From Paeniglutamicibacter quisquiliarum (GTDB taxonomy: Bacteria; Actinomycetota; Actinomycetes; Actinomycetales; Micrococcaceae): a stretch of DNA of 64,000 nucleotides. Position numbers and translations under genes: made by a program. This document shows positions 42,721-58,179 of this stretch, piece by piece (position 1 is the stretch's first letter; the number at the start of each line of letters is the position of its first letter). The notes under the pieces were generated by a model. The model worked only from the letters and a program-made list of their open reading frames with translations, made no database searches and was not told the DNA's origin. Where the stretch lies: assembly GCF_019084045.1 (NCBI RefSeq), contig NZ_JAHRED010000001.1:558001-622000 (forward strand). Direction: 5' to 3'.

Positions 42721-42934
42721 GGCACAGTCACCGCCTCGGCACCGTCCGATGACGGGTCCCGGGGACGGGGGTCTGCGGGCACCAAGGATCGTTCATGTGC
42801 CCTCCCGAGACTGGCCCGGACCGGACGGCAGCGCGGGGCCCAAGGCAATCCCCTGGACGGCACCGGGGCGGGTTTCGGGGAGTGCATCCGGGGCGCGGCC
42901 CGGGGTCTTGGGCTGGTGATCATTGTCGACCCGG

Positions 42935-43837
42935 TTAGAAAGCGCTGAAATTCTCCCGGCCGAAGGCCAGCAGTTCATTGATTTTCCGGGTGGGTCCGAG
43001 GCCCGCCGGGTAGGCCAGGCCGAAGGCATTTTCCGGCACGGGTTCGGCAATGTCCTTGAGCACGAGGGGGAGTCCTTCCTGGCTGGTCGGTCCGGGCCAG
43101 ATGCTCAACAGGACCGAGTAGGCCAAGCCCCGGCCGACCATGGAGCGGATGGTTTCGGTGCTTGAGGAACGCCAGCGCACGTCCGGCTGAAAACCCATGG
43201 AACGGATCATTGCCTCGACCAATGTCCCGGCAGGCTTGACGTCGGAGAGCACGGCCGGAAACCCTGCCAGATCCTTGAAGGACACCGTCCCCTGGGAGGC
43301 CAGCGGATGATGCGCGGAGAGCAGGACCTTGGGAACGACGGCGGCGATCGGTTCGAAGGAGCTGTGTGACAGGACGTGTCCGCGGAGAATGAAGCAGGCA
43401 TCCAGGGTCCCGTCCACCATCTGCGCCTGCAGTTCCGTGGAGGAGCCCTCCTCGAAGGCGAGATCCACGTTTGGGTGGTTCTCGGCAAAATATTGGACCA
43501 TTTCCGGAATGATGCGCGATGAGTAGGCGCGGTAACAGCCCACGCGGAAGGTGCCGCTCAGCTCGCCCTGAAGGTCACCGGCAACACTGCCCAGTTCGGA
43601 GGCCTCGCGCAAGATCCCGCGGGCCCGGGCCGCCACCGTCGCTCCGGCGGGGGTGAGGACCGATCCCTTCGACTTGCGCCGGATGGCCAGCTGGACGCCG
43701 AGTGCGGCCTCGAGCTGGGTCAACGCGAGGGAGACCGCCGTTTGTGAGACGAATAGCTCGTCGGCCGCGGCTGCGAGCGATCCGGTTTCGGCAACGGAGA
43801 CCAAGTACCGCAATTGTTTGAGGGTCACATCATTCAC
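42935..43837 (-). CDS. LysR-family transcriptional regulator
   Basis: 300 aa. The helix-turn-helix is L-K-Q-L-R-Y-L-V-S-V-A-E-T-G-S-L and S-Q-T-A-V-S-L-A-L-T-Q-L-E at the N-terminus, with a LysR substrate-binding domain after about residue 85. GTG 43837 is chosen because AAGGA lies six bases upstream; an in-frame ATG at 43861 would add eight residues. Divergent from the MBL-MHS pair at 43956-46464, which it probably controls. Confidence 0.9.
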   Translation of the reverse strand: MNDVTLKQLRYLVSVAETGSLAAAADELFVSQTAVSLALTQLEAALGVQLAIRRKSKGSVLTPAGATVAARARGILREASELGSVAGDLQGELSGTFRVGCYRAYSSRIIPEMVQYFAENHPNVDLAFEEGSSTELQAQMVDGTLDACFILRGHVLSHSSFEPIAAVVPKVLLSAHHPLASQGTVSFKDLAGFPAVLSDVKPAGTLVEAMIRSMGFQPDVRWRSSSTETIRSMVGRGLAYSVLLSIWPGPTSQEGLPLVLKDIAEPVPENAFGLAYPAGLGPTRKINELLAFGRENFSAF

Positions 43838-43955
43838 AAGTTTTCCTTGGGTAGTTTGCACGAAACATGTGTTTTACAAAGGATATGGCGCGGCGCACAG
43901 TTGAGGGAAGCAAGTGAGCACCCTCACGCATGATTTATTCCAAAGGACTTCAGAC

Positions 43956-45032
43956 ATGAGCAAGCATTCGGGCCCCTACGTGGTGGCCCTCGGCACGGCG
44001 GGCGGACCCCGCTGGTGGACCGGGGCGGGCGCCGGTGAGCGCCAAGGCATCGCCACCGCCGTCGTGGTCAATGGATCCGCTTACCTGGTCGATTGCGGCC
44101 ACGGGGTGGGCCGACAACTCATGCTTGCCGGCATCGAACTCGGTTCGCTCAAGGGCATCTTCATCACCCACATGCACTCCGACCACACCGTGGATCTCGC
44201 ATCCATGACCGTATTCGGGACGCTGGCCCTGGCTGCGCAGGACGCGAAACCGGTCAAGGTCTTTGGACCTGGCGACCGCGGCATGTTGCCGCCGGTCTCC
44301 ACCCATGTTTCGGGCCGTGAACCCCAGGCCGTGGGCGGGAACGATCCGACCCCCGGGGTGGAAGGCATGTTCAGGTACCTGGTCAGTGCCTACGCCACCG
44401 ACCTGAACGACCGGATATTCGACACGCTGCGTCCACCTCCGCACGAGAAGTACACCGTGCAGGACATCGAACTGCCCGCGGATGTCGGCTACCACCCGAA
44501 CTCCAACCCGACTCCCGACATGGAACCGTTCCTCGTCCACGAAGACGAAAACGTGACGGTCACGGCCATCCTCGTCGAGCATCCCCCGGTGGCTCCCGCC
44601 TTCGCATTCCGCTTCGACACCGCCGAGGGCTCGGTCACGATTTCCGGTGACACCGCGCCCACCCGGAACCTGGTTCGCCTCGCGAGGGGCACCGACCTGC
44701 TCATGCACGAGGCCATCGACTTCGACTGGGTGCGCCGGGGCTACGCCCACGAAACCGAGCAGGCGGCCGAGGCCGGGATGGAACACCATCGCAAGTCCCA
44801 CACCTCGGCCCGGCAAGCAGGAGAACTGGCCACGCGCGCCGGAGCCGCCCGCCTGGCACTGCACCACCTGGTGCCAGGCACCGCGGACCCGGATGTCTGG
44901 CACCGGGCGAGGGAAACCTTCGCCGGGGAACTGTTCGTCCCCGACGACCTGGACATCATCCCGTTCCAACGTCCGTCCACCGAAGTTCCCCCGGTGATGG
45001 AAAAAAACTCACTACAACCCCTGAGCCGCTAG
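43956..45032 (+). CDS. Cytoplasmic metallo-beta-lactamase-fold hydrolase
   Basis: 358 aa with no signal peptide. The zinc motif is T-H-M-H-S-D-H near residue 71, with later ligands in V-E-H-P-P-V, I-S-G-D-T and L-H-H-L-V-P. The arrangement and the G-P-G-D-R-G segment match the Tat-exported protein at 32661-33863, so the two are paralogues. AAAGGA precedes the ATG. It is 37 bp upstream of an MHS carrier and divergent from a LysR gene, suggesting it acts on a compound brought in by that carrier. The reaction is unknown; lactone, ester or sulfate-ester hydrolysis would fit the fold. Confidence 0.85.
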   Translation: MSKHSGPYVVALGTAGGPRWWTGAGAGERQGIATAVVVNGSAYLVDCGHGVGRQLMLAGIELGSLKGIFITHMHSDHTVDLASMTVFGTLALAAQDAKPVKVFGPGDRGMLPPVSTHVSGREPQAVGGNDPTPGVEGMFRYLVSAYATDLNDRIFDTLRPPPHEKYTVQDIELPADVGYHPNSNPTPDMEPFLVHEDENVTVTAILVEHPPVAPAFAFRFDTAEGSVTISGDTAPTRNLVRLARGTDLLMHEAIDFDWVRRGYAHETEQAAEAGMEHHRKSHTSARQAGELATRAGAARLALHHLVPGTADPDVWHRARETFAGELFVPDDLDIIPFQRPSTEVPPVMEKNSLQPLSR

Positions 45033-45069
45033 GCGTTCTCAACCCCTCCTCCTGAGAGAAGCAGCAATC

Positions 45070-46464
45070 ATGACCAAGCATTCGTCGGTCTCCCAGCCCG
45101 CGTCCCATGATCCGCGGCAAATGCGCCGCGTCCTGTTTTCCAGCTACCTCGGCAGCGTCGTCGAGTTCTACGACTTCCTGCTCTATGGCATTGCAGCATC
45201 GCTGGTCTTCGGCCAGGTGTTCTTTGCCAACCTTGACCCGATGGTGGGCACCATCGCATCCTTCGGAACCCTGGCCGCGGGCTACATCGCCCGACCGCTG
45301 GGCGGAGTCATCTTCGGCCACTTTGGGGACCGGGTGGGCCGCAAGTCCATGCTGGTGATCACCATGACGCTCATGGGCGTGGCCTCCACCCTCATTGGCC
45401 TGATTCCCACCTACAACCAGATCGGCGTCGCCGCGCCGATCATCCTGGTCTTCCTGCGCGTGATCCAAGGCATTGCCGTGGGCGGCGAATGGGGCGGCGC
45501 CGCGCTGATGAGCCTGGAGCACTCCACCAAGCGCCGCCGCGGATTCTCCGCCAGCGTCACCAACATGGGCGGCCCCTCCGGCGCGCTGTTGGCCACGCTC
45601 ATCATGACCGCCTGCTCCACCATGCCGGAGGAAAGCTTCCTGGCGTGGGGTTGGCGCATCCCGTTCCTGCTCAGCGCCGTCCTGGTCGGGCTGGGAATGT
45701 TCATCCGCCTGCGCATCCAGGAATCCCCGGTCTTCGCCGCGGCCCAGGCCGCCGCGGCCGCGGAGCGGAAGTCGGCAACCGGGGCCAAGAAGCCATCGGT
45801 GCCGCTCTTCGAGGTGCTGCGCCACTACCCCAAGAACGTCCTGTTGGCCGCCTTCGGCGGGGCCGGGGCATTCGTCATCCAAGGCCTGCTTGCCACCTTC
45901 GCCATCACCCTCGCGGTGGGCGGCGGCGCCGACCGCACCTCCGTACTCATGGTCCACGGCATTGGCTCGTTCCTGCACATCTTCACCATCCCGTTCTTCG
46001 CCGCTCTCTCGGATCGGGTGGGCCGCCGCCCCGTCATGATCAGCGGTGCACTGGCCGCCGCGCTGATGGCCTACCCGCTCTTCCAGATGCTGGCTACCGG
46101 GGACATGGGATGGGTCCTTGCCGCCTTCCTGATCGGCAACCCGCTGATCCAGGCCTCGATGTACGGGCCGCTGGCGGCCTTCATTTCCGAGATGTTCGGA
46201 ACGACCTCCCGCTACACCGGCGCCTCGCTGGGCTACCAGCTGGCCTCGACGCTGGGAGCCGGGCTGGCGCCGCTGCTGGCCGCGACGCTGTTGACCGTGG
46301 GTAACGGGAACCCCGTGTGGGTCTCCGTCATGGTCACCGTGATCTGCGTGATCAGCGCGCTGGCCATCTTCCTCACCAAGGAATCGCACAAGCTCGACTT
46401 GGACGGGGACCGGCCGGAGCCCGCGGCACTGCCGGCGGGATCCGAAGCGGCAAACGCCGCATAG
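45070..46464 (+). CDS. MFS transporter, metabolite:H+ symporter (MHS) family
   Basis: 464 aa, 12 helices. It opens S-S-Y-L-G-S-V-V-E-F-Y-D-F-L-L-Y-G, has G-D-R-V-G-R-K-S after helix 2-3 and the G-G-E-W-G-G-A motif, all typical of the MHS group (shikimate, dicarboxylate and aromatic acid carriers). A second carrier at 58899-60230 is a clear relative. It is co-directional with the MBL gene and probably in the same transcript. Substrate not determined; an aromatic or carboxylic acid is likely from context. Confidence 0.9.
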   Translation: MTKHSSVSQPASHDPRQMRRVLFSSYLGSVVEFYDFLLYGIAASLVFGQVFFANLDPMVGTIASFGTLAAGYIARPLGGVIFGHFGDRVGRKSMLVITMTLMGVASTLIGLIPTYNQIGVAAPIILVFLRVIQGIAVGGEWGGAALMSLEHSTKRRRGFSASVTNMGGPSGALLATLIMTACSTMPEESFLAWGWRIPFLLSAVLVGLGMFIRLRIQESPVFAAAQAAAAAERKSATGAKKPSVPLFEVLRHYPKNVLLAAFGGAGAFVIQGLLATFAITLAVGGGADRTSVLMVHGIGSFLHIFTIPFFAALSDRVGRRPVMISGALAAALMAYPLFQMLATGDMGWVLAAFLIGNPLIQASMYGPLAAFISEMFGTTSRYTGASLGYQLASTLGAGLAPLLAATLLTVGNGNPVWVSVMVTVICVISALAIFLTKESHKLDLDGDRPEPAALPAGSEAANAA

Positions 46465-46486
46465 CCCTTCCGGCACCGAAGTAGGA

Positions 46487-46531
46487 CAGGTGTCCTCGGC
46501 ACACGCCACAAGCGTGTGCCGAGGACACCTG
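46487..46531 (+). terminator. Intrinsic terminator after the MHS carrier
   Basis: A perfect 20-bp stem (46487-46506 with 46512-46531), five-base loop, followed by CTTTT. Marks the left border of the CHAT cassette. Confidence 0.92.
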
Positions 46532-46629
46532 CTTTTCGCGTCAACGACCGCTCCCTTCCGTGGAATCAGGAGCCGCTTGCGCCAGGTCCCCGGAGCCGTG
46601 GCGGGACTCGGCGGGCCGGACACAGAGGA

Positions 46630-46673
46630 GGGGACCCGCCACACATCCCCCAAGGACTGTGTGGCGGGTCCCC
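46630..46673 (-). terminator. Intrinsic terminator of the CHAT-subtilase cassette
   Basis: A perfect 16-bp stem (GGGGACCCGCCACACA and complement) with a 12-base loop, 22 bp past the stop of the last cassette gene. Confidence 0.8.
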
Positions 46674-46694
46674 GTCCGGCCCGGGGGTGCCGGG

Positions 46695-48797
46695 TCAGCG
46701 CACGACGATCGTGATCGCCTTGCTTGCCCTATCGACGGTGATCCGGTCCCCGTCGGCGCCGTTGGGGGCATCCATCGGCGTGGTGCCTGTGCCCGGCCCG
46801 GCCTCCGGTGAGGCGTCGCCTCCGGAGTCCGCGCCTTCGATCGTCTGCGCAGTCTCGTTGAGTCCGCGGGCCTCGTCGAGCGCTCCGGCGTTGGCCGGTT
46901 CCTCGGCCCCGAGCGGATGCACGGGAGTGCCCGGCCGCCAGAACGTATAGCCCCAGTTCACCGACCAGTTGTACGACCAACGCGACCGATTCCCATTCGC
47001 CCTCAACAGCACGTTCGTGAAGCGCACGTCGTGACCGCTGCGGGCCAGCATCACCGGACCCGGGTTTCCCGCGAAGGTGAACTGGTCAAGCACGGATCCG
47101 TCCGGTGCATGCGAGCGGAACACCAACCCGTTGAGCCGCACCGTGTTGATGCCGGAGTTGTAGATCCGGATATTGGCGCGGATGAACGTGTCGCCGCCGG
47201 ATCCGAGGAAGACCGGGGAGACCTGGATCGAGTACCAGATCCGGGAGGCCGCCTCGAGCGCCGCCCGGGCGTCGATCCGGCCGAACCCGAAGTGCTGGTC
47301 CCTGCCCCCGGCACCCAGATCCCGCGCCGTCAGCTTGATGATGTCCTCGACCTCCCACGAGCGCAGCCCCGGATCGACGGCAAGGACCAATGCCATGAGG
47401 CCAGCGACATGCGGAGTCGCCGAGGACGTGCCGTTGAACGTGTTGACGTAGTTGCCGCCGGAGTAGCCGCCCGAACCCATCATGTCGGTGGTCGGGATCT
47501 TGACCCCCGGCGCCACCACGTCGACCTCCGGGCCGTAGTTCGAGCCCCACCAGGTCTCGCCGTCGAGGCTGGTCCTGCTCTTGCGCTGGTCCCATTGGTT
47601 GCTGGCACCGACGGCGAGGAATCCCGGGATCGAGGGGGAGAGGCGGGCGGGGTAGCCGACACCGAGGCTGTCGCCGTTGCCCGTGGCCGCCGCGATCGGG
47701 GTGCCCCTCCCGCCGCGCCCGTTGGTCTGGGCGTAGCGGAACGCGTTGGCCACCACGGTGCTGGCGCCGCTGCCCCACGAATTGGAGAGCACGTCGGCCC
47801 CGAGGTCGACGGCCTTGCGCACGCCTGCGGCGATGATGGCGTCGGTGGTTGACCAGTAGCCGCCGCCGATGCCGTAGGCGATGCGGATGTGCCGCACCCG
47901 GCTGTTCGGTGCGACCCCCGCAACGCCCCGCCCGTTGTGGGCCGTCGCCGCGACGATCCCGGCGCAGGCAACGCCGTGGCCGTCGGCCGGGTTGGGGGTC
48001 GGGTCCGGGTCGTTGAAGCGGGCGTCGAAGCCGGGGGCCAGGACATAGTCCTCGTGGGCGTTGCCGCCCTCGTCGATGACCGCAACCGAGATCGCGGAGC
48101 TGCCGCGGGAGATGTCCCAGGCCTCGGGGCAGCGGATCTTGGCGATTCCCCACTGCGCGGACAGCAGCGGGTCGTTGGGCGTGAACGCCGGTCCGGTGCC
48201 GTCCGGCGCTGCCGTTTCAACGAGCTCCTCGAGGGTGCTGGTGAGGCGCGGGGAGATGCGCACGAAGTTCGGCACCGCGTACTCGACGCCTGCCTGCTCG
48301 TGCAGTTCGTTGGCGATGGCCAGCGCGGAGTCCTGCCCGCGCGCGGTGCGGACAAGGCTCGCTCCCGGCTCCGGGTAGTCCTCCTGGACGGTCTCGAGGT
48401 GGTGCTTCTTGAGCAGCCGCGCCGCGGCGTCGGTGCCGGGTTCGAACTTGACGATGAGCTCGCCCTGGTCAATGAGTGCGCTCGGCACGTCCTCGCCCTC
48501 CCCGGCCGTGGGCTCGTAGACGTCGGGGCCCCCGGCGTCCCCGGCGGCCCGTGCCCCGGCGGGCAGGGCGGTTGCCGCTGCCGCGTCATCGACCCGGAAG
48601 ACCACGAGGTCCTGGTCGGTGACCCTGAGCACTTGGACCGGGTGCTGCGGGTCGGGTGAGGCCGCCGCGGATCGCGATGACAGCTCTTCGGCCTCCTCGG
48701 GGGTCGCCCGGACGGCGACGAAGTGGGTCGATGGGGCCAGCGGGACGCGCTCGCCGTCGGCGTAGTAGTAGGCCGTGGCCTCGGTGGTCTCTGACAT
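46695..48797 (-). CDS. Subtilisin-like serine peptidase (S8) of the CHAT cassette, large
   Basis: 700 aa. The catalytic triad is complete: D242 in V-I-D-E-G, H274 in G-H-G-V-A-C-A-G and S458 in N-G-T-S-S-A-T-P-H, with oxyanion N374. Residues 1-220 are an acidic N-terminal region lacking any signal peptide; parts of it look like a propeptide/inhibitor domain (residues about 107-180). The C-terminus (about 515-640) is a beta-rich domain. Without a signal the protein should act in the cytoplasm, unusual for subtilases. It has its own promoter-like element 54-82 bp upstream, shared with the other subtilase of the cassette. Substrate unknown. Confidence 0.92.
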   Translation of the reverse strand: MSETTEATAYYYADGERVPLAPSTHFVAVRATPEEAEELSSRSAAASPDPQHPVQVLRVTDQDLVVFRVDDAAAATALPAGARAAGDAGGPDVYEPTAGEGEDVPSALIDQGELIVKFEPGTDAAARLLKKHHLETVQEDYPEPGASLVRTARGQDSALAIANELHEQAGVEYAVPNFVRISPRLTSTLEELVETAAPDGTGPAFTPNDPLLSAQWGIAKIRCPEAWDISRGSSAISVAVIDEGGNAHEDYVLAPGFDARFNDPDPTPNPADGHGVACAGIVAATAHNGRGVAGVAPNSRVRHIRIAYGIGGGYWSTTDAIIAAGVRKAVDLGADVLSNSWGSGASTVVANAFRYAQTNGRGGRGTPIAAATGNGDSLGVGYPARLSPSIPGFLAVGASNQWDQRKSRTSLDGETWWGSNYGPEVDVVAPGVKIPTTDMMGSGGYSGGNYVNTFNGTSSATPHVAGLMALVLAVDPGLRSWEVEDIIKLTARDLGAGGRDQHFGFGRIDARAALEAASRIWYSIQVSPVFLGSGGDTFIRANIRIYNSGINTVRLNGLVFRSHAPDGSVLDQFTFAGNPGPVMLARSGHDVRFTNVLLRANGNRSRWSYNWSVNWGYTFWRPGTPVHPLGAEEPANAGALDEARGLNETAQTIEGADSGGDASPEAGPGTGTTPMDAPNGADGDRITVDRASKAITIVVR

Positions 48798-48820
48798 GGG
48801 ACTGCTCCTCTAGCGGGGAT

Positions 48821-48846
48821 GGGTGCGGCGCCCCTTTGCGCCGCAC
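48821..48846 (-). other. Hairpin in the leader of the large subtilase gene
   Basis: GTGCGGCG and CGCCGCAC enclose eight bases between the proposed promoter and the ATG at 48797. It could affect translation or mRNA stability; there is no evidence for ligand binding. Confidence 0.4.
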
Positions 48847-48850
48847 ACCC

Positions 48851-48879
48851 TAGGAGCGCCCGCGGTGGCCGGTGATACA
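48851..48879 (-). promoter_or_regulatory. Proposed ECF-sigma promoter 1 of the cassette
   Basis: On the minus strand the sequence reads TGTATCACCG, 13 bp, CTCCTA. The same two blocks at the same spacing occur at 53945-53973 before the other subtilase. It lies in the 105-bp gap between the CHAT gene and the large subtilase gene. Confidence 0.65.
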
Positions 48880-48902
48880 CCTCCGGCCAAAAAAGTTTCC
48901 CC

Positions 48903-51392
48903 TCAGCGGTTCGGACCCGCCCGCCAGTTTGAGCCGAACCAGGCGAAGCTGCGCTCCAGCAGCCCGTCGCCGGCCGCGGCGAGTGCCTCCGGTCCGTCCT
49001 GTCCGGCCGCGAGCCGCCGGTGCATCTCGCCCATGGTCCGCGACGCGAGGGCGTCGGGGACGTCGGTCAGCGGCGCCACCACGGCACCCACGCCCATGGC
49101 GAGCAGGCTCGAGGTCAGGCCCAGCGCCTCGTCCCCGGGCCTCAGCCGCCCCCGCCCGGCGCCGCAGGCGGAGAGCACCACCAGCGAGGCGCGGATCGGG
49201 ACATGTTCCAGCTCGTGGGCGAACAGCGAGCCGCCGTGCAGCCGCAGGGAGGAGAAGAGCGGGCTGTCCTCCCGGTGCTGCCCGTGGGCGGCGATGTGGA
49301 CGACGTCGTACGCGGCCAGCGCCTCCTTGACGGCGGCAGGTTCGGCGGGGACGCGCCGGGCGCCTGCCCAGCACCCGGCCACCGCGGTGCATTCCGCCTC
49401 GGCCAGGGCCAGCCCCGGACCGGAGGCCACCGCCACGCGGGGCGGTCCCGCCAGCCGCACGGCGCCGGCAGCCCAGGCGCCCACCGAGCGGCTGAGCGCG
49501 AGTCCGCGGTGCCGCAGCCTAGGCAGCATGCCCCAGGGCAGCCTGGCCAGTTCGCCGCTGGGGATGACCACCAGCGGCCCGGTGCCGAGCTCGACGGGCA
49601 GGATCAACTCCTCGAGCCGTTCCAGCGATGCGGCCAGGGAGGAGAGCACCGCCGCGGCCAGCGGGCCGGGCGGCGCGTGGCTGGCTGCCGACGCGTCGGC
49701 GAGCGCGCCGGCGACCAGGTCGGACACCTCCGCCCTGTCTCCCACGCGCAGCAGCCGCGCGGGAAATCCCGGCTCGACGTGCACCAGGTGCAGCGTGTCC
49801 CCGGACCAGAAGTAGCTCAGCACGCTTGCCGCCCCGAGATCGGCGCGGAGCAGCCGCCCGGGCAAGCGCACCGGGCCGCGCTCGCGCCGGGCCCAGTGGT
49901 GTTCGCGCAGCTCCCTCTCGATCCCGCCGATCTCCACCCGCAACGCACCCGCGCGCCCGGGGTCGGCCGTGCGCAGCTCCTCGTGGTGCCGGCGCAGGGT
50001 GGAAAAACGTGTGGCCGCCCATGCATCGGCCGGCGGGACGACCGAGGGCACCTCGGCGAGCGCCGCCCGCCAGCGTTCGGTCGCCAGCAGCGCCGCCCAG
50101 CCGTCCCCGCTCCCGGCCACCCGTTCCAGGTCCGAGCGCACGATGGGGGCCAGATGGATGGCCACGGCGGTGCGCAGGTCCAGGCTGGCCATGCCGGACC
50201 GGGCGGCGGCCGTGTCCCGCGCCGCGGCGCGCAGCAGCCTGCCGCGGCCCTGCTGGTCCGTGGTCGTGGACAGCTGCGCGAGGATGGCCAGCATCCGCGT
50301 GGACAGATAGGGGGACGCGCGCATCCGCCGCAGGCAGCGCACGGCCTCGACGTCGGGAACCGCCGTTCCGTGCCCGGCGGCGGCGATCAGGTGCAGGGCG
50401 GTGGCCCGGTCCGCGAGCCAGGGCCTGCGTGCCGCACGCGCCGCGGAGGCGAGCTCCGCGGCCTCCGCTCCGAGCCGGACATCCGGCATCCCGGGACCCA
50501 GGAGCAGCGCCTCGAGCCGCATCGACCGGGCCTCGTGCGCGCGTGCCGGCTCCCCGCGTGCCGTGGCGTCGCCCATGACCTCCGTGGCCAGGCGGACGGC
50601 GTCGGGCGTGTGGCCGGTGAGCGCGGCGCAGCGGGCCTGGTCCAGCCGGGCCTCGGCCCATTCCTCGGCCAGGCCAGCCAGGCGCAGTTCCTTCACGGCC
50701 GTGTCGAAGAGCTCGGCGGCCTCCTCGATCAGGCCCGCCTCCAGCAGCACGCGGGCGCGGTCGTGCCGGGCGACGGAGCGGTCCACGTCGGCCTCGAGCT
50801 CGTCGGCCTGCGCCATGAGGCGCAGGGCCGCCGGCAGGTCCCCGCGCAGGTACTGGACGAATCCGAGGTTGTGCAGCGCCATGAACCGGTACGCGGGCAG
50901 TCCGCTCCCCAGGTGCGCCGCGGCCCGCAGGTCCCCGGCGGCCTCGTCCAGTGATCCGGTCCGTGAACCGATCGTGCCCTTGTTCAGCAGCAGCCGGACG
51001 CGGTCATCGAGCGGGAACGCAGCCGAGTACTTCACGGCGGGCCGCAGCTGTTCCAGCGCCTCGTCGAAGTTCCCGGCGCGGGCGCCGAGCACCCCGGCCT
51101 GGATGTGGGCGAGCGCCCGGATGTCATCCCGTCCCGCCGCGACGGCTTCGCGCAGCACCGCGTCGATCTGGGCCAGGGCCGCGGGCAACCCGTGGTCATC
51201 GCAGGTCAACCACGACTCGGTGAGCCGGATCCTCAGGCCGAGCTCGAACCCCTCATCCCGGGGCAGCTGGCCCAGGTGGTGCCGGGCCGTCTCGATCTTC
51301 CGGCGTGCCTCGGCCAGCCGGTACGCGGCGATGGCCGCCCGGGCGTCGCTGTACGCGCCGGCTGCTGCCGTGAGATGGTCCGGTGCGGGCAT
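48903..51392 (-). CDS. TPR-CHAT caspase-like protease
   Basis: 829 aa. Residues 1 to about 450 are helical and Ala/Leu/Arg-rich with TPR-like pairs (for example L-A-H-I-Q-A-G-V-L-G-A-R-A-G-N-F-D-E-A-L-E-type units). The C-terminal CHAT domain, from about 560, has the catalytic dyad of caspase-like peptidases: H703 in H-I-A-A-H-G and C743 in V-L-S-A-C-G-A-G. It is 2 bp downstream of the small acidic protein gene. CHAT proteases are usually activated by a sensor module, here probably the TPR region, and cleave one specific partner. The partner candidates are the neighbours: the 157-aa protein, the sigma factor or a subtilase propeptide. Confidence 0.92.
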   Translation of the reverse strand: MPAPDHLTAAAGAYSDARAAIAAYRLAEARRKIETARHHLGQLPRDEGFELGLRIRLTESWLTCDDHGLPAALAQIDAVLREAVAAGRDDIRALAHIQAGVLGARAGNFDEALEQLRPAVKYSAAFPLDDRVRLLLNKGTIGSRTGSLDEAAGDLRAAAHLGSGLPAYRFMALHNLGFVQYLRGDLPAALRLMAQADELEADVDRSVARHDRARVLLEAGLIEEAAELFDTAVKELRLAGLAEEWAEARLDQARCAALTGHTPDAVRLATEVMGDATARGEPARAHEARSMRLEALLLGPGMPDVRLGAEAAELASAARAARRPWLADRATALHLIAAAGHGTAVPDVEAVRCLRRMRASPYLSTRMLAILAQLSTTTDQQGRGRLLRAAARDTAAARSGMASLDLRTAVAIHLAPIVRSDLERVAGSGDGWAALLATERWRAALAEVPSVVPPADAWAATRFSTLRRHHEELRTADPGRAGALRVEIGGIERELREHHWARRERGPVRLPGRLLRADLGAASVLSYFWSGDTLHLVHVEPGFPARLLRVGDRAEVSDLVAGALADASAASHAPPGPLAAAVLSSLAASLERLEELILPVELGTGPLVVIPSGELARLPWGMLPRLRHRGLALSRSVGAWAAGAVRLAGPPRVAVASGPGLALAEAECTAVAGCWAGARRVPAEPAAVKEALAAYDVVHIAAHGQHREDSPLFSSLRLHGGSLFAHELEHVPIRASLVVLSACGAGRGRLRPGDEALGLTSSLLAMGVGAVVAPLTDVPDALASRTMGEMHRRLAAGQDGPEALAAAGDGLLERSFAWFGSNWRAGPNR

Positions 51393-51394
51393 CC

Positions 51395-51868
51395 CTAGAA
51401 CTCGACCACCGGAGTCAGGACGGGCTTGGCCTCCGGGTCGTCGGGCTGGAGGAGGAAACGGATCGGGCCGTGGGGGATCGAGCGCCAGAGCAGGCGCCCG
51501 TGCGCATCCGAGGTGGCCCAGTGGGCGGTCCTGTCCGCGTAGAGGGCGACACGGAGGCCGCCGCCGGTGACCCAGCCGTCCACGCGCAGCCCGCCGTCCT
51601 GGTCCTCAGTGCTGCGCACCATCAGCTGCAGGGCCGAGCTGGTGAAGGTGATCGAGTCGGTGGGGCTGGCATCCACGGCGCGCAGCGCCGGCAGGTTTTC
51701 CTCCAGCGCCGTGGCGAGCTCCGCATCCAGGGCGGCGAGGGAGAGCGCGAACAGGACGCCGTCGTCCAGCGTGGGCGGCGGCGGGTCCATCGCGTCAAAG
51801 AGCTCGGCGACACTCTCCAGGATGGCGGCGTCCAGCCCGTCCAGGGGTTGCTCGTGGTTCTCGTTCAT
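51395..51868 (-). CDS. Small acidic protein between the sigma factor and CHAT genes
   Basis: 157 aa. Residues 1-55 are acidic and predicted helical, with a P-P-P-P break at about 29-32. Residues about 70-157 are strand-rich and look like a small Ig or carboxypeptidase-regulatory-like domain (V-D-G-W-V-T-G-G-G-L-R-V-A-L-Y). There is no membrane helix and no zinc-finger anti-sigma motif (HxxxCxxC). The ATG overlaps the sigma stop by ATGA. By position it is a candidate anti-sigma factor or the CHAT substrate. That is inference; I do not recognise the family. Confidence 0.8.
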   Translation of the reverse strand: MNENHEQPLDGLDAAILESVAELFDAMDPPPPTLDDGVLFALSLAALDAELATALEENLPALRAVDASPTDSITFTSSALQLMVRSTEDQDGGLRVDGWVTGGGLRVALYADRTAHWATSDAHGRLLWRSIPHGPIRFLLQPDDPEAKPVLTPVVEF

Positions 51869-52446
51869 GGTGTGCTCCAGGTGGGGTCGGAGGCGAGGAA
51901 AGTGCGCAGCGCGTCCAGGCAGCGGCCGCGGGTGGGGCCGATGGACCCGACCGGGATGCCCAGCGCCGCGGAGAGGGCGGCGTAGTCGGGCGGTCCGCCG
52001 CGGCTGACGACGCGCAGGATGGCCTGGCAGCGGGGGTTTAGCCGGGAAACGTGGTTCCAGAGCGTGCGCTGGGCCTCGTCGCGCAGCAGGGCCTCGGCCG
52101 GTCCGGGTCCGGGATCGCGGGGTCCGGTTCCGGGGTCCGGCTCCTCCCACGGCAGGGTGCGCCCGCGCTCGCGGGCCACGCGCCATGCCTCGCGCCTGAC
52201 GGTGGTGCCCAGCCAGGCGAGCACCGTCTGCGGGTCCCGGATCGTGTCCGCCCGGTCCACCAGCCTCAGCCAGGCGGTCTGGACGACGTCCTCGGCATCG
52301 GTGGGCTCGAGCCGGCAGGCGCGGGCCAGGTGCCACAGGGTGGGGTTCAGCAGCCTCACGAGGGGTTCAATCCGGCCGCGCCCGCCGTTGCGGAACTCCT
52401 CGAACAGCGTTGCGGCCTCCTCGACGAGGCCCGTGGCCCCGGTCAT
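51865..52446 (-). CDS. ECF-type RNA polymerase sigma factor
   Basis: 193 aa. Region 2 has D-A-E-D-V-V-Q-T-A-W-L-R-L-V-D, the -10-reading segment, and region 4 has Y-A-A-L-S-A-A-L-G-I-P-V-G-S-I-G-P-T-R-G-R-C-L, a clear sigma4 helix-turn-helix. ATG 52446 overlaps the stop of the upstream subtilase by ATGA; ATG 52458 is a less likely start. No membrane anti-sigma gene is present. It probably transcribes its own cassette from the repeated TGTATCACCG-N13-CTCCTA elements. Confidence 0.92.
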   Translation of the reverse strand: MTGATGLVEEAATLFEEFRNGGRGRIEPLVRLLNPTLWHLARACRLEPTDAEDVVQTAWLRLVDRADTIRDPQTVLAWLGTTVRREAWRVARERGRTLPWEEPDPGTGPRDPGPGPAEALLRDEAQRTLWNHVSRLNPRCQAILRVVSRGGPPDYAALSAALGIPVGSIGPTRGRCLDALRTFLASDPTWSTP

Positions 52447-53912
52447 GGCCGCTTCCATCCCAGCGTGCTCCCCAGCGCCGCCCAGGCGCTCTCGAGGCGT
52501 TCGGCAAGATCCGGTGCGGCGGATCCGGCCAGGGCGCGTGCGAGTTCGGCCGCGAGGACCGGGGCCGAGAAGGACGTGCCGCTCCAGACCCCGAAGCCGC
52601 CGGAGAAGTCGTCGGGGTCAAGCGTGGCACGCGGCAGCCCGGAATTCTCCAGCGCGGCGATCATCTGCCTGTCCCCGCGCAAGTGCGTGGGCATCGTGGA
52701 GACCAGTGCCGCTCCTGGCCGGTGGCAGCTCACCCACGGCCCGGCATTGCTGAAGTAGGCGACAGTGCCGTCCGGGTTCAGCGCACCGACGCCGGCGATC
52801 GGCAGCAGCCCGGCGGCCGCAGGTCCGGCGGCGAACCCGGCAGGGTACATCGGGGCGGTCGTGGAGTTGTTGCCGGCCGAGGCGACGACCAGGACGCCGA
52901 AGCGGCCAAAGTCCTCGAGCAGCGCGCGCAGCGGGGCGTCGGCGAGCCGGTCGGCCGGGGTCTCGTGGTAGTAGCCGAGCGAGAGGCTGAGCACGTCGAT
53001 GGGGCTTTCCTGGTCGCCTGTTGCAAGGGCGGAGAGCTGGCGCGTGCGCAGCGACTGGAGCGTTGCAATCAGGCACGATTCGGAAACCACGCCGTCGTCT
53101 GCCATGACGGGGATGCCGAGGATGCGGGCCTCGGGGCAGCGTTGGCGGATGATCCCGGCGATGAACGTCCCGTGGCCGGCGAAGGGCGGCAGCGTGCCGT
53201 CCAGCGGGTTGCGCACCGGTTCGGGGACCGCGGATCCGGGGACCGTCCCGTGGCGCCCGAGCAGGTGCCCGTCGACGTGGACCTCGGCGGTCGCGGTCGC
53301 CGGGTCCTGGAACCACGGGTGCTGCTCCAGGCCGGTGTCGGGCACGACCACCACGGGCGCCCGTTTGGTGCGCGGGCGGCCCACGAGCGGGTCCGGCAGC
53401 ACCACCGACACCGGGGTCCGGCCGCCCATGCCGGGCGATCCGTAGCTGGTGGCCGGGGCACCGGCGACGCCTGCGTAGTAGGGAACGCCCGCGTAGTAGG
53501 GCACCCCTGCGTAGTACGGGGTGGCGACCATCGCGTGGTCCAGGGCCACGCCGGCCTCTGCCCCTGCCCGGCGCAGCCTCCCGAGCACCTGCCAGGCGTC
53601 GACGTCCTCCGGTTCGCCGTGCAGGACGAGCCGGCCGATCGGCGGCGCGAGCTTCACCGGGGCCCGCTCATCCCCGGGCGCGATGCCCAGCGGCGTGGCC
53701 TCCACCTTGATCCCCAGCTCCCCTGCCACCTTGTTGATGGTGTCGAGACGGCCGGCGAGCTCGCCCGGCTCCGCGGAGATCAACAGGGAATCCGCCACGT
53801 AAGCGCTCGCCCCACCTCCGGGCGGGACCACCGCGCGAAGGTTCCAGGCCGCTGCGACCAGCGGGTCGATCTGCGGGAAGGGATTGCTGGCGACAGCCAT
53901 GGGCTCGGTCAT
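52443..53912 (-). CDS. Subtilisin-like serine peptidase (S8) of the CHAT cassette, small
   Basis: 489 aa. The triad is D192 in V-P-D-T-G, H247 in G-H-G-T-F and S447 in S-G-T-S-F-S-A-P, with oxyanion N348. Residues 1-130 precede the protease and include an alpha/beta region that may act as a propeptide. Between it and the protease lie three PYYAGV repeats (132-149) in a Gly/Pro-rich linker. No signal peptide or membrane helix is present, so it is probably cytoplasmic. ATG 53912 with GAGAGGA upstream is chosen over longer forms. First gene of the cassette; overlaps the sigma gene. Confidence 0.9.
   Translation of the reverse strand: MTEPMAVASNPFPQIDPLVAAAWNLRAVVPPGGGASAYVADSLLISAEPGELAGRLDTINKVAGELGIKVEATPLGIAPGDERAPVKLAPPIGRLVLHGEPEDVDAWQVLGRLRRAGAEAGVALDHAMVATPYYAGVPYYAGVPYYAGVAGAPATSYGSPGMGGRTPVSVVLPDPLVGRPRTKRAPVVVVPDTGLEQHPWFQDPATATAEVHVDGHLLGRHGTVPGSAVPEPVRNPLDGTLPPFAGHGTFIAGIIRQRCPEARILGIPVMADDGVVSESCLIATLQSLRTRQLSALATGDQESPIDVLSLSLGYYHETPADRLADAPLRALLEDFGRFGVLVVASAGNNSTTAPMYPAGFAAGPAAAGLLPIAGVGALNPDGTVAYFSNAGPWVSCHRPGAALVSTMPTHLRGDRQMIAALENSGLPRATLDPDDFSGGFGVWSGTSFSAPVLAAELARALAGSAAPDLAERLESAWAALGSTLGWKRP
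53466..53519 (-). repeat. Three tandem 18-bp repeats encoding PYYAGV
   Basis: In-frame perfect amino-acid repeats at residues 132-149 of the small subtilase. The DNA copies differ only at synonymous positions, so the peptide is kept under selection or the repeat is recent. Confidence 0.9.
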
Positions 53913-53944
53913 GGTGGTCCTCTCAAGATCGTGTTCCTGAGACT

Positions 53945-53973
53945 TAGGAGGGGCTTGGCTCGGCGGTGATACA
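53945..53973 (-). promoter_or_regulatory. Proposed ECF-sigma promoter 2 of the cassette
   Basis: TGTATCACCG-N13-CTCCTA on the minus strand, ending 33 bp before the ATG of the small subtilase, at the head of the S8-sigma-small-CHAT operon. Same blocks and same spacing as 48851-48879. Confidence 0.65.
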
Positions 53974-54139
53974 TCCATGGTGGAAGGGAACATCTCGGCG
54001 CCATTCCAACATGGTCGAATCCTACGCCCGATCCGGGCACCTTGCGCCGGTGAACCGGCGGGGAAAGACCTCGTTGCCGGCATTGCGGGAGGCCGGCCCC
54101 TTGCCGGGCAGAGGCCCGGCGAGAGTCGGGCAGCAAAAA

Positions 54140-54188
54140 GGTCCGCCCTGCGGGGTGCCACCAATGATGGCATCCCACAGGGCGGACC
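54140..54188 (-). terminator. Intrinsic terminator of the mhpBDFE operon
   Basis: GGTCCGCCCTG pairs with CAGGGCGGACC around an inner TGCCA/TGGCA stem. On the minus strand a run of five T follows, 19 bp after the mhpE stop. Marks the right border of the cassette. Confidence 0.9.
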
Positions 54189-54206
54189 CGTGCGTGTCGG
54201 TGGTGC

Positions 54207-55235
54207 TTAGCGGGCGCCGGCCAGCTGCACGGCGACGTCCACGATCATGTCTTCCTGGCCGCCGACGTAGCCAGCCTTGCCGATTTCCTCGAGGATGCGG
54301 TAGGCCGGGACGCCATAGCGTTCTGCCGCGCGCTCGGCGTGGATCAGGAAGGAGGAGTAGACCCCTGCATAGCCCTGCATGATGGAGGCGCGGTCCATGA
54401 CCGGCATGCGGGTGATGAACGGCTTGACGACGTCCTCGGCCGCGGCCATGACGCCCTGGATGTCGACGCCGGTCTTGATGTCCAGGCGGTCGAACGCTGC
54501 GGCGAGGACCTCGGTGGGGGAGTTGCCCGCACCGGCGCCCAGCGCCATCAGGGTGCCGTCGATCTGCTTGGCACCTGCACGTACGGCGAACACCGAGTTG
54601 GCCACGCCGAAGCTCATGTTCTGGTGGCCGTGGAAGCCGACCTGCGCGTCGTCGCCGAGCTCGGCGACCAATGCTGCAACGCGGTCCGAGACATCGTCAA
54701 GGATCAGTGCGCCGGCGGAGTCGACCACGTAGACGCACTGGCAGCCGGCGTCGGCCATGATGCGTGCCTGCTTGGCGAGCTCCGCCGGGGTGACCCGGTG
54801 GCTGAGCATCAGGAAGCCGACGGTTTCCATGCCGAGCTTGCGGGCGTGCTGGAAGTGCTGGATGGAGACATCCGCCTCGGTGCAGTGGGTGGCGATGCGG
54901 GCCACGGAGGCTCCGGCGTCGTACGCCTGGTTGAGGTCGTGGATGGTGCCCAGGCCCGGGAGCATCAGCACGGCGATCTTGGCCTGCTTGGCCTCGTCAA
55001 CCGCTGCCTTGATCAGGTCAAGTTCCGGGGTCTTGGAGAATCCGTAGTTGAAGGAGGATCCGCCCAGGCCGTCGCCGTGGGTGACCTCGATGACCTCGAC
55101 GCGGGAGTCGTCCAGCGCGCGGACCACGGAGCGGACGTGTTCCTCGGTGAACTGGTGGCTCATGGCGTGCGAACCGTCGCGCAGCGTGGTGTCGGTGAGG
55201 CGGATGTCGAAGGTGGTGTTCATGGGTGCAGTCAT
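54207..55235 (-). CDS. mhpE: 4-hydroxy-2-oxovalerate aldolase
   Basis: 342 aa. It begins with the HMGL-like motif [11 protein letters not shown], has V-G-F-H-G-H-Q-N for metal binding, and ends in the DmpG-type communication domain ([13 protein letters not shown]). It splits 4-hydroxy-2-oxovalerate into pyruvate and acetaldehyde and channels the latter to MhpF. The gene is 20 bp downstream of mhpF, the last of mhpB-D-F-E. Confidence 0.94.
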
Positions 55236-55255
55236 GATGTGCTTCCCCGTTCCTA

Positions 55256-56191
55256 CTAGTTGGCCAGCGCGTTGGTGCGCGCGGCGTCGATTTTGTCGGA
55301 GAGCAGGTCCGCGGTGCGCGTGGCTGCTGCGGTGATGATGTCCAGGTTGCCGGCGTATTCGGGCAGGTAGTCGGCGGCGCCCGCCACCTGGACCCAGATG
55401 CCGACGCGGCCAAAGCCGCCCCAGTCCTCGCGGGCTTCGTCGAATTGCGGTTCCAGGCGCAGCTCGTAGCCGGGGACGTAGTCGCGGATGGAGGCGGCTG
55501 CCTCATCGATGGCCGCGCGGATGGCGTCCTGCGTGGCGCCGGGTGCTGCTGCTTCGGCGGGGATCATGCAGTAGATGGTGTTGCGCATCATCATCGGTGG
55601 TTCCACCGGGTTGATGATGATGATGGCCTTGCCGCGCTTGGCACCTCCCACGACCTCCAGGGCCTTGGCGGTGGTCTCGGTGAATTCGTCCACGTTGGCG
55701 CGGGTGCCCGGGCCTGCCGACTTCGAGGCGATGGACGCGACGATCTCGGCGTACTCAACGGGAACCACGGAGGAAACGGCGGCGACGATCGGGGTGGTGG
55801 CCTGGCCGGCACAGGTAATCATGTTCACGTTCATGGTGTCGGTGAGCGTTTCCAGGTTCACCACCGGGGCGAGGTACGGACCCACTGCGGCGGGGGTCAG
55901 GTCGATGGCGTGGATGCCGGCGGCCTTGTATTTCGGGGCGTTGGCCTCGTGGGCCTTGGCGGAGGTGCATTCGAAGACGAAGTCGGGCAGCTCGTCCTGG
56001 GCCAGCAGCCAGTCCACGCCCTCGGCGGAGGTGGTGATGCCCAGGCGCTTGGCGCGGGCCAGCCCGTCGGAGTTGGGGTCGACGCCGATCATGTACTTGA
56101 CCTCGACGTTGGTGGAGCGGCGCATGATCTTGAACATCAAGTCGGAGCCGATGTTGCCGGAGCCGACGATGGCGGCTGTTTTCTTGGCCAT
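55256..56191 (-). CDS. mhpF: Acetaldehyde dehydrogenase (acylating)
   Basis: 311 aa. The NAD site is [11 protein letters not shown], and the catalytic cysteine is in [10 protein letters not shown] near residue 130. It converts acetaldehyde from MhpE into acetyl-CoA within the MhpE-MhpF complex. AGGAAG precedes the ATG. Third gene of the operon. Confidence 0.95.
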
Positions 56192-56239
56192 GGGGTTGCT
56201 ACTTCCTGAGAAAAGGTATCGAAGAAAAAAGGGTGGGGG

Positions 56240-57046
56240 TTAGACGAAGTTGATGCTCAGCGAGCCCAGGGGCCCGAAATCGGCGGTGGCCGACTGTCCG
56301 GCGATCACCGGCAGGGCGCCGGTGAAGGAACCGGGTAGGACGAGCTGTCCGGCTTCCAGGGAGACGCCCTGCTCTCCCAGCACGTTGGCCAGCCACGCCA
56401 GCGGGGCCACCGGATCGCCCATGACGTCGGTGCCGGTGCCGGTGGAACGCACTTCGCCGTCGATGAGCAGCGAGCACTCGATCGAGCCGAGGTCCTCGAC
56501 CTTCACATCCAACGGGGTGGTGCCCACGGCGATTGCGCCGCAGGAGGCGTTGTCCGCGACGGTGTCGACCAATCGGATGTCCCAGTTGGCGACGCGCGAA
56601 TCGATGATCTCGATGGCCGCGTAGACCTCGCCGATCGCGGCGGCCGCCTGCTCGCGGGTCACGCCCGGGCCGGTCAGGGTTTCCTTCAGGACGAAGCCGA
56701 ATTCGGGTTCAACCTTGGGGGAGATGAAGGTGTTGGCGGCGATCTGCGCGCCCTCGTGGTGCACCATGTCGGTGAAGAAGAAGCCGAAGTCCGGGGAGTC
56801 CACGCCGAGCTGCTTCTGCATGGCCAGCGAGGTCAGCCCGACCTTGCGCCCTGCCAGCACGCGGCCGGCGGCGAGGTGGGCGCGCAGCTGGGAGTCCTGG
56901 ATGCGGTAGGCATCGGTGACGTCCATGTTTTCCACGCGGTCGCGCAGCGGGGCGATGGGTTCAAGCGTTTGGGTGGCGGTCAGCAGGTCCGCGGCCAGGG
57001 ATTCGAGGAGTTGGGTGCGTTCGGTGCCCATGGTGGTTTCGCTCAT
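56240..57046 (-). CDS. mhpD: 2-oxopent-4-enoate hydratase
   Basis: 268 aa, FAH-family fold. It has G-R-K-V-G-L-T-S and the metal ligands in P-K-V-E-P-E-F-G-F near residues 105-115. It hydrates 2-oxopent-4-enoate to 4-hydroxy-2-oxovalerate. ATG 57046 overlaps the mhpB stop by four bases; longer frames upstream lie inside mhpB. Confidence 0.94.
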   Translation of the reverse strand: MSETTMGTERTQLLESLAADLLTATQTLEPIAPLRDRVENMDVTDAYRIQDSQLRAHLAAGRVLAGRKVGLTSLAMQKQLGVDSPDFGFFFTDMVHHEGAQIAANTFISPKVEPEFGFVLKETLTGPGVTREQAAAAIGEVYAAIEIIDSRVANWDIRLVDTVADNASCGAIAVGTTPLDVKVEDLGSIECSLLIDGEVRSTGTGTDVMGDPVAPLAWLANVLGEQGVSLEAGQLVLPGSFTGALPVIAGQSATADFGPLGSLSINFV

Positions 57047-57984
57047 TTCTTCAGTACCGCGGTGGTGACGCCAAAGCCGGCAATGTATTCCTTGATCGGC
57101 TTGTAGAACTCGTAGTTGACCTCGTATTCGCCGCAGGCGCGCAGCGCCGAGTAGGCGGCGACCCAGGTGCGGACCTCGTGCGAGGAGTGCCCGGCGACCG
57201 CGTCCATCTCGTCGGCGGTGTAGGCGTCGAAGCCCTCGACGTTCCCCGACTTGCAGACCTCGAGGAAGGCGCGGTCCCATTCGGGGTTCAGATCCATGAT
57301 GTCTGCCTCGCCAGCGGCGAACTTGATGGCCGTGTTGATGGTGTTGGCCTGGCGGGCGGCGCGGGCCTCCGGGGTGGGGTTGCGGCCGTTGGTCAGCATG
57401 GCGCGCTGTGCCTCGGTGGCGGTGGCGATCTGCGGGACCGGCGGGTCGTGGGACAGGCCGCCGGAACCGATGAACAGGACCTTCTTGTCGGAGTCCTTGA
57501 AGTATTCGCCCACGGCCTGCCCGAACTTGCGCACGCGGGAGACCTTGGTGAAGGGGCGGGCCACGGAATTGACGAAGATCGGGATCACCGGGACGGTGTC
57601 CAGCCCGCCGAAGATGATTTCCATGGGCTGCACGGCCCCGTGGTCGACCTCCATCTTGCGGGAGATTGCGGTGTCGATGTCCTGGTCGATGATGTACTGG
57701 GCCAGCTTCTCGGCCTCGTTCGTCGGGACGTTGATCGGCCCGGCCCAGGAGTCGTAGTCGCCGGTGCCCAGCGCTTCGTAGCCCACGCAGAACGGCGGCA
57801 TCAGGTCGTAGAAGAAGCCGTTGTAGTGGTCCGGGCCGAAATTGACGACCAGATCCGGGTTGAAGTCCTTGGCAAAGGCACGGACCTGCTCGAAGGCCGC
57901 GTTGACCGCTGCCTTGACGTCTTCGGGCGGATTCGTGTGCCCCAGCAGGGGCGAGTGCGACATGGCGATCAGTGCTTGTTGCAT
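57043..57984 (-). CDS. mhpB: 2,3-dihydroxyphenylpropionate 1,2-dioxygenase
   Basis: 313 aa class III extradiol dioxygenase. Conserved residues are visible in S-H-S-P-L-L-G, F-G-P-D-H-Y-N-G-F-F, M-E-V-D-H-G-A-V-Q-P and G-S-G-G-L-S-H-D-P-P. It opens the ring of 2,3-dihydroxyphenylpropionate next to the diol. GGAG lies eight bases before ATG 57984. First gene of mhpB-D-F-E, divergent from a TetR gene. Confidence 0.95.
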   Translation of the reverse strand: MQQALIAMSHSPLLGHTNPPEDVKAAVNAAFEQVRAFAKDFNPDLVVNFGPDHYNGFFYDLMPPFCVGYEALGTGDYDSWAGPINVPTNEAEKLAQYIIDQDIDTAISRKMEVDHGAVQPMEIIFGGLDTVPVIPIFVNSVARPFTKVSRVRKFGQAVGEYFKDSDKKVLFIGSGGLSHDPPVPQIATATEAQRAMLTNGRNPTPEARAARQANTINTAIKFAAGEADIMDLNPEWDRAFLEVCKSGNVEGFDAYTADEMDAVAGHSSHEVRTWVAAYSALRACGEYEVNYEFYKPIKEYIAGFGVTTAVLKK

Positions 57985-58157
57985 TCCTGGCGCTCCATTC
58001 GATCGGCGGCTAGAAGATCTTGCTTGCATTCATTCCATCCCATGCGCCGCACGAAGGCACGCCGATGTTCCATTCAGCGGCACGAAACATTTGTTGTCTT
58101 GCGGGCAGCGCCATTGAATCCCGCGAAAATTGCGCTCTGGTTCATCGAGCAAAAGCG

Positions 58158-58169
58158 TGCACTAGTGCA
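58158..58169. promoter_or_regulatory. Perfect palindrome between mhpB and the TetR gene
   Basis: TGCACTAGTGCA, centred 16 bp before the TetR ATG. It is close to TGCATTGGTGCA found upstream of mhpC at 62468-62479, so one regulator may bind both. Confidence 0.55.
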
Positions 58170-58179
58170 TAATTTAGGC

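Follow-up and report, generated by a model that had tools for sequence, protein, structure and literature searches.

We analysed a 64,000-nucleotide stretch of the Paeniglutamicibacter quisquiliarum genome (contig NZ_JAHRED010000001.1 of assembly GCF_019084045.1, positions 558,001 to 622,000; hereafter, the window), in which five minus-strand genes form a compact cassette. In order, they encode a subtilase (S8A), an extracytoplasmic function (ECF) sigma factor, a small protein (P157), a protease with tetratricopeptide repeats and a CHAT domain (TPR-CHAT) and a second subtilase (S8B) (Table 1). The sigma gene overlaps S8A by 4 bp if it starts at 52446, P157 overlaps the sigma gene by 4 bp and a 2-bp gap separates P157 from TPR-CHAT; S8B lies 105 bp beyond TPR-CHAT, with its own promoter-like site upstream. 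These coordinates bear out an earlier interpretation made from the letters of the window (the sequence-only reading) as to the five genes, their order and their spacing, and the active-site residues that it assigned to the three proteases are correct. It had also placed intrinsic terminators on both flanks; strong hairpins do lie on both sides, but a strict terminator scan reported none at the flanks of the block. Signal peptides were looked for by eye only, with no predictor run, and none was seen in the cassette proteins, S8A included.

Table 1 Features of the protease–sigma factor cassette and its flanks, in window coordinates
Feature	Position	Strand	Description
S8A	52443..53912	(-)	489-aa subtilase, triad D192/H247/S447; Peptidase_S8 (Pfam/NCBIfam)
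ECF sigma factor	51865..52446 (193 aa) or ..52458 (197 aa)	(-)	Sigma70_r2 + TIGR02937
P157	51395..51868	(-)	157 aa; two helices, disordered linker, seven-stranded beta-sandwich (model); proposed anti-sigma factor
P157 Arg63 codon	51680..51682	(-)	invariant; proposed cleavage site
TPR-CHAT	48903..51392	(-)	829 aa, caspase-like, dyad H703/C743; CHAT + weak TPR (Pfam/NCBIfam)
S8B	46695..48797	(-)	700-aa subtilase, fervidolysin-type prodomain; triad D242/H274/S458; Peptidase_S8; accessory, lineage-specific
S8A prodomain, aa 36-129	53526..53807	(-)	DSSP of model; pro-subtilisin fold matches
S8A hexapeptide array PYYAGV x3, aa 132-149	53466..53519	(-)	repeat search; predicted disordered
Promoter-like site GTATCA-N16-CTCCT before S8A	53946..53972	(-)	motif search
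Promoter-like site GTATCA-N16-CTCCT before S8B	48852..48878	(-)	motif search
Two strong hairpins downstream of S8B, terminator-like	46483-46534 + 46627-46677	.	z -8.5, -4.2
Strong hairpin between neighbouring gene and cassette	54139-54189	.	z -8.0

The gene association itself is not new. The available part of the ECF54 description reports a context of subtilase, CHAT and carboxypeptidase domains, proposes proteolytic regulation and recognizes no anti-sigma factor (PMC8999054). The cassette has the same association, an ECF sigma factor together with a subtilase and a CHAT protein. In a class-wide sample of Actinomycetes, a homologous CHAT protein was detected (E ≤1e-20) in 113 of 394 genomes, with 124 matches in all. 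Set A comprises 125 loci, namely 123 class-sample matches (the window's own excluded) and 2 from a family search; set B comprises named loci, the best 80 of 289 confirmed relatives, from a scan with a CHAT pattern ending in HG[RTQ]H. An alignment of 25 CHAT proteins was too diverse for patterns, and those for set B were drawn from nine closer ones. S8A, sigma, P157 and TPR-CHAT occur together at 80 of 125 set A loci, two of which also carry S8B (those from the family search), at 78 of the 123 class-sample loci and at 67 of 80 set B loci. The remainder includes, in set A, CHAT with sigma and P157 (14), CHAT with S8A and P157 (1) and CHAT alone (8) and, in set B, loci without S8A (9), with CHAT and S8A only (2) or with CHAT alone (2); some missing partners are due to contig ends. 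Where at least 5 kb is available on both sides, all three CHAT partners are present at 73 of 103 (set A) and 56 of 60 (set B) loci. The S8B family is found elsewhere only at L033 (=L158), L159, L034 (=L160) and L162 among 205 loci, its holders besides the window being three Arthrobacter relatives and one Tessaracoccus. What is conserved in Actinomycetes is a system of four genes, with S8B an addition in close relatives; the five-family linkage expected by the sequence-only reading holds for those four, and S8B is lineage-specific rather than core. A second, simpler type of locus, a head-to-head CHAT and S8 pair with no sigma, P157 or peptide array detected, is confined to one sample family (f27; L065, L066, L071, L100-L102, L107, L109-L111).

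The tie between sigma and P157 is tighter still. All 170 sigma loci have P157 on the same strand, within 60 nt in 159 of them; sigma never occurs without P157, and P157 occurs without sigma at a single locus. P157 lies directly after sigma and co-occurs with it, as is expected of an anti-sigma gene. The P157 profile was rebuilt from the best domains only, its first version having drifted into overlapping frames of the sigma gene. P157 has no Pfam or NCBIfam match, no significant sequence match among solved structures and no fold match at E ≤0.001, and a search for related loci with P157 alone as query returned none. An AlphaFold2 model from a 60-sequence alignment (mean predicted local distance difference test (pLDDT) score of 89.1) contains helices at residues 11–27 and 34–57 and seven strands within residues 72–141. 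The sole segment with pLDDT below 50, residues 63–67, starts at R63. Of four homologues scanned, two show a CarboxypepD_reg-like match below the cut-off. Only R63 and G124 have no exception across 174 aligned P157 sequences, and R63 is followed by Gly, Ser, Ala, Thr or Asp in 169. Arginine at P1 is common in clan CD peptidases, separase and metacaspase among them. Because an invariant arginine in a flexible linker is the expected look of a protease site, the alignment and the model make Arg63 a candidate site for cleavage by TPR-CHAT. The published view of ECF54 differs: stated from gene context in the available part of its source (PMC8999054), it has proteases control sigma directly, with no anti-sigma factor, and P157 would then be structural or accessory. 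We consider this unlikely, given that P157 accompanies sigma at every sigma locus in the place that anti-sigma genes take and that its helix-plus-linker architecture keeps an invariant arginine; the 'carboxypeptidase' of ECF54 may in fact be the CarboxypepD_reg-like sandwich of P157.

Homologues keep the catalytic residues that the sequence-only reading pointed out: the dyad H703 and C743 is present in all 115 CHAT proteins longer than 650 residues, the window's included, and the S8A triad is complete in 174 of 179 proteins, with a substitution in one of the five exceptions and gaps in the rest. Searched against solved structures, a profile of the CHAT domain matched a 991-residue CHAT protein (1.5e-10), CHAT domain proteins such as 7x8a and 8d9f (2e-7), TPR-CHAT 7zoq (E 1.6e-4) and Csx29 7y9x (E 0.04), with separases only above 0.6; we take 7x8a and 8d9f to be Craspase entries. 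By sequence, then, the CHAT domain is related to TPR-CHAT/Csx29 of Craspase, in which, according to the available part of one report, cleavage of an inhibitor relieves a sigma factor (PMC10028731). The type III-E Craspase/CASP locus (Cas7-11, Csx29, Csx30 and CASP-sigma) shares with the cassette a TPR-CHAT protein with a His-Cys dyad, an ECF sigma factor and a small proposed inhibitor, but the available descriptions give it neither the subtilase tier nor the arrays that belong to the cassette, and P157 matches no solved structure significantly. The window's own genome has no match to the repeat-associated mysterious proteins (RAMPs; PF03787), the family searched for as a sign of a Cas7-11/gRAMP effector, and no CRISPR-array-like direct repeats occur at window positions 40001-60000, the only region searched. 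The cassette is therefore not a Craspase, although it may work like one. The earlier proposal of a CRISPR-free relative of Craspase logic gains from the conserved linkage and catalytic residues, the related CHAT domain, the small sigma-linked protein with its invariant linker arginine and the lack of a RAMP.

Two other systems offer parallels. In EACC2-caspase conflict systems, one neighbourhood holds a peptidase of the caspase type together with a TPR protein and an ECF sigma factor, and autopeptidase activation has been proposed (PMC8195603, available part); none of their EACC2, TRADD-N and DUF1822 domains was matched by the five cassette proteins, and that part mentions no subtilase partner. 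In the CalpL-CalpT-CalpS system of type III CRISPR, a protease cuts an anti-sigma factor and releases an ECF sigma factor (PMC11417357, available part), but CalpL joins a Lon protease to a SAVED sensor, neither of which is among the matches of the cassette proteins.

Kinship with Craspase raises the prospect of an anti-phage or programmed-death system, which we regard as rather unlikely. CHAT homology to TPR-CHAT/Csx29, proteases as output and a patchy distribution would suit such a role: the CHAT protein (E ≤1e-10) occurs in 3 of 197 genomes of its own family, own genome included, and three named Arthrobacter genomes carry the cassette at another location. The cassette DNA can be aligned to these three loci but the window's flanking DNA cannot, so the cassette has moved as a block; G+C per kb is 69–77% in the cassette and 56–74% in the rest of the window. 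Against a defence role, the PADLOC matches of the cassette's own proteins are only a weak BovA (E 0.0013, CHAT) and a generic subtilase model (S8B). Of 164 set A flanking proteins, 98 were scanned, and they matched 11 PADLOC models with at most 14 member matches (a count without background), whose names point mostly to generic enzymes and regulators. Their Pfam families are varied metabolic and regulatory ones, and the defence or death role raised in the sequence-only reading finds no specific sign among the flanking genes scanned.

A promoter-like motif, GTATCA-N16-CTCCTA, lies upstream of both S8A and S8B. In 3.56 Mb of loci, the form GTATCA-N16-CTCYT occurs at 106 sites with a spacer of 16 and at 0–6 sites for each of 18 other spacers (8–26). 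Downstream of 60 of these sites, a crude gene caller placed S8A (27), sigma (27) or S8B (6), and 1 site led into no reading frame. Relaxed to GTATC[AT]-N16-CTCYT, the motif precedes the first gene at 58 of 170 sigma/P157 loci, compared with 0–4 at spacers of 12–15 and 17–20; it is widespread, not universal. The window's own genome (4.44 Mb, with just 5 S8 matches and 10 sigma-70 region-2 matches), scanned at a spacer of 16 only, has exactly two exact GTATCA-N16-CTCYT sites, one before S8A and one before S8B; allowing one mismatch added 3 sites, with 13 in the reversed control. In each of three other Arthrobacter genomes the motif occurs 2 or 3 times, including twice at the cassette, and seven further genomes searched have 2 to 6 sites. 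The simplest reading of these sequence patterns is that the motif is the sigma factor's own promoter and would serve only the cassette in the window genome. Outside it, the sigma factor may have a larger regulon or different sites, given that many sites face other open reading frames (ORFs) and that most set A loci have no such motif before the first gene.

These other ORFs include the trypsin-like gene of Cellulomonas, a gene for a LuxR-type ATPase and genes for small uncharacterized proteins. At five loci, the motif stands about 7 nt before the start of a CHAT-adjacent gene (L062:10367-12304, L080:10395-12602, L081:10329-12299, L105:5916-7727, L117:10702-11739), for which a leaderless mRNA is possible; the L062 product is a LuxR-type ATPase regulator by Pfam, and those of L080, L081, L105 and L117 begin alike. 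Other motif-bearing genes are divergent from the cassette (L172:829-1911, L177:224-1219, L178:2-493, L183:5663-6412). By Pfam, L177 is APH-type kinase-like and L183 HopA1-like, and L172 and L178 resemble L177. A link to lanthipeptides suggested by these two families was dropped, no paired pathway having been seen.

The AlphaFold2 model of S8A (mean pLDDT of 86.8) predicts a catalytic domain from residue 187 and, before it, a β-α-β-β-α-β prodomain that is presumably I9-like. The best Foldseek matches are unprocessed pro-subtilisins, in alignments of about 450–480 columns. S8A shares the prodomain and catalytic domain with these proteins, but it is apparently cytoplasmic and carries a genus-specific hexapeptide array in its linker. 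Residues 134–150, with pLDDT below 50, are predicted to be disordered; the disordered stretch reads PYYAGVPYYAGVPYYAGV. A search for exact repeats in up to 150 residues before the catalytic Asp found arrays in 84 of 181 S8A proteins, a few of low complexity. A tolerant criterion of three or more units gives arrays in 75 of 181: 54 of 71 from set B, 20 of 109 from set A and the window's own. Most units are six residues long, often with an aromatic residue after Pro or Gly, and they differ between genera, examples being PYYAGV, PYLAGV, NPFTRT, NPYGRT, PFTRGA, GYWGGVG and, without an aromatic, PVTSGH in 11 copies. DNA encoding PYYAG occurs three times in the window's own genome, always within the S8A array, and DNA encoding GYWGG[VI]G occurs in 10 of 12 genomes searched, as one cluster each (reversed control, 1 hit). 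One locus in a metagenome-assembled genome of Nitriliruptorales (L195) carries two tandem S8A/P157/CHAT sets and then a sigma–P157 pair, and its two S8A proteins bear differing arrays, PFTSGG and HPLYDG.

An array that is constant within a gene and changes between genera points to co-evolution of a protease with its client. Tandem units within a predicted disordered segment could also be mere flexible linkers expanded by replication slippage, an explanation that we find highly improbable. In 81 of 83 exact arrays, the same peptide is encoded by at least two DNA versions. Comparison of copies within genes gave a synonymous divergence (pS) of 0.44, high enough to disfavour recent slippage, and a nonsynonymous divergence (pN) of 0.010 (pN/pS 0.022), pN being lowered by array detection that requires similar peptides. 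The motifs can recur at irregular spacing, as do PYWKVP in L036 and PYFTGPG in L176, and a similar P-F motif is found on a protease of another family, described below.

TPR receptors of the RRNPP kind, defined by a TPR receptor with a DNA-binding domain and an exported peptide precursor, read peptides of 5–10 residues. By analogy, the hexapeptides might be released as short signals for the TPR part of CHAT, with the genus-specific units acting as pherotypes. Unit length (mostly six), identical copies, genus specificity and a TPR protein encoded in the operon would fit this idea, but no export signal was seen by eye and the repeats sit inside a protease precursor; TPR-CHAT, moreover, has TPR and CHAT domains by Pfam and no helix-turn-helix domain. 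We judge a signalling role distinctly unlikely.

Eight Cellulomonas loci bear on which partner reads the array. No S8A was found there; its place is taken by a trypsin-like, NAL1-like protease gene, assigned from three scanned proteins with Pfam matches below the cut-offs, that is divergent from sigma. The C terminus of four copies consists of long PFTE arrays with spacers such as ALGAN (L201:6444-8288, L182:6256-8493, L185:6415-8385, L188:6312-8414); three others run off the contig before the array part, and in one the start was called too far upstream, although the frame contains the array. Of 12 genomes searched, DNA encoding PFTEPFTE is present in 7, all of them among the 8 Cellulomonas genomes, and is absent from the 4 others. 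It forms a single cluster in four; in the remaining three it lies beside or spans a contig break or is on a separate contig. With up to one mismatch and no control, GTATCA-N16-CTCYT faces the trypsin-like gene at 8 of 8 loci (one gene start being uncertain) and sigma at 6 of 8. A protease of another family, under the same type of promoter, thus carries the same kind of array. No other observation hints as strongly at a shared partner that reads the array, for which TPR-CHAT is the obvious candidate. We also weighed whether S8A itself is the P157 protease, with the array as its own auto-processing site and CHAT acting elsewhere or only sensing. The array does separate the prodomain from the catalytic domain, at the point where subtilisins process themselves. 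This alternative nonetheless seems improbable to us, because R63 is kept in 23 of 23 P157 proteins from loci at which S8A was undetected and because the Cellulomonas array, C-terminal to the domain of a trypsin-like protease, is not simply a prodomain junction.

CHAT residue 706 varies with the array. In set A, for which the array list was compiled by hand, His706 is present at all 20 loci with exact and 3 with irregular arrays and at 2 without an array. None of the 76 loci with a different residue at this position has an array; the count rises to 2 of 76 if L097 (PQSK x3) and L112 (PGG x3), whose repeats have no aromatic and which were scored as array-free, are included. Relatedness may explain this contrast, and set B cannot be used for it, having been chosen by a pattern that ends in HG[RTQ]H. 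Between the catalytic His and Cys, the window and two close relatives have LHGG (CHAT residues 718-721, window 49230-49241), and 110 of 115 homologues have Asp at position 720 (LADG type). Behind CHAT, some loci encode a protein of about 100 residues with its own GTATCA-N16-CTCYT site (L204:12309-12656, L230:12450-12752, L226:2381-2686, L044:7558-7872, L052:7547-7861). A profile of this family matched at six loci, and no Pfam family scored above the cut-off. Judged by eye, it is possibly an inhibitor; a chagasin-like identity, also proposed by eye, received no support from Pfam.

Taken together, the cassette is best read as a self-contained, self-amplifying proteolytic switch of the ECF54 kind, CRISPR-free and Craspase-like, an account that we hold to be about as probable as its negation and whose binding and cleavage steps we infer. 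At rest, P157 would hold the sigma factor. A cue read by the TPR part would activate TPR-CHAT, which would cut the P157 linker at Arg63, part the helices from the beta-sandwich and free sigma. Freed sigma would then read the observed GTATCA-N16-CTCYTA motifs as its promoters. Because the sites in the window's own genome stand only before S8A-sigma-P157-CHAT and before S8B, the circuit would amplify itself and its output would be protease. TPR-CHAT would also engage the S8A array between prodomain and catalytic domain, by docking or cutting, and thereby activate S8A, with the cytoplasmic subtilases as putative executioners.

Several observations weigh against this account. All loci were retrieved through CHAT, so its ubiquity among them is a selection effect, and two genomes are common to sets A and B. 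At 22 of 125 set A loci, CHAT and S8A occur without detected sigma or P157. Of the 106 spacer-16 sites, the crude gene caller assigned 45 to other ORFs, whose frame is in many cases doubtful, and in set A alone GTATC[AT]-N16-CTCYT precedes the first gene at only 20 of 94 loci. Most S8A proteins of set A have no array, and one of the 20 arrays counted there, that of L112, is Gly-Pro low complexity; the detection method biases pN downwards; and the Cellulomonas array lies C-terminal to the protease domain. Known Craspases cleave A|S, L|D and M|K in an ortholog-specific manner, not after Arg, according to the available part of PMC11106740. A more specific version of the switch is correspondingly more tentative, and we would call it possible rather than probable: a two-tier, CRISPR-free cascade in which TPR-CHAT would know its client proteases by a lineage-specific tandem peptide code, portable across unrelated folds (subtilase and trypsin-like), would cut an anti-sigma factor at an invariant Arg and would fire a sigma factor targeting only the cascade genes, all or none.

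The ECF54 association, the predicted sigma sites found in the window's own genome only at the cassette and the S8A prodomain with its array go beyond the sequence-only reading. In the literature searched, arrays, promoter and P157 are unmentioned and nothing was found beyond ECF54 and the parallels above; coverage of subscription papers was thin, and absence from print is not established. A term search of the available text of PMC7159879 did not find the word CHAT, and the literature search returned nothing on the SAVED-CHAT/PCaspase cascade, a further known system. As far as these searches show, the tie between P157 and sigma with its Arg63, the promoter motif and the S8A prodomain-array are new; the available part of the ECF54 source describes the group without an anti-sigma factor and gives neither promoter nor array nor cleavage site (PMC8999054). 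These findings develop a note on gene context into a definite circuit, in which a promoter and a candidate cleavage residue are named and an anti-sigma factor and a peptide code are proposed. If true, the circuit would extend caspase-like control of ECF sigma factors beyond CRISPR across Actinomycetes and would be a source of CHAT proteases with differing client specificities, with a cue and a purpose that common laboratory strains would allow to be tested.

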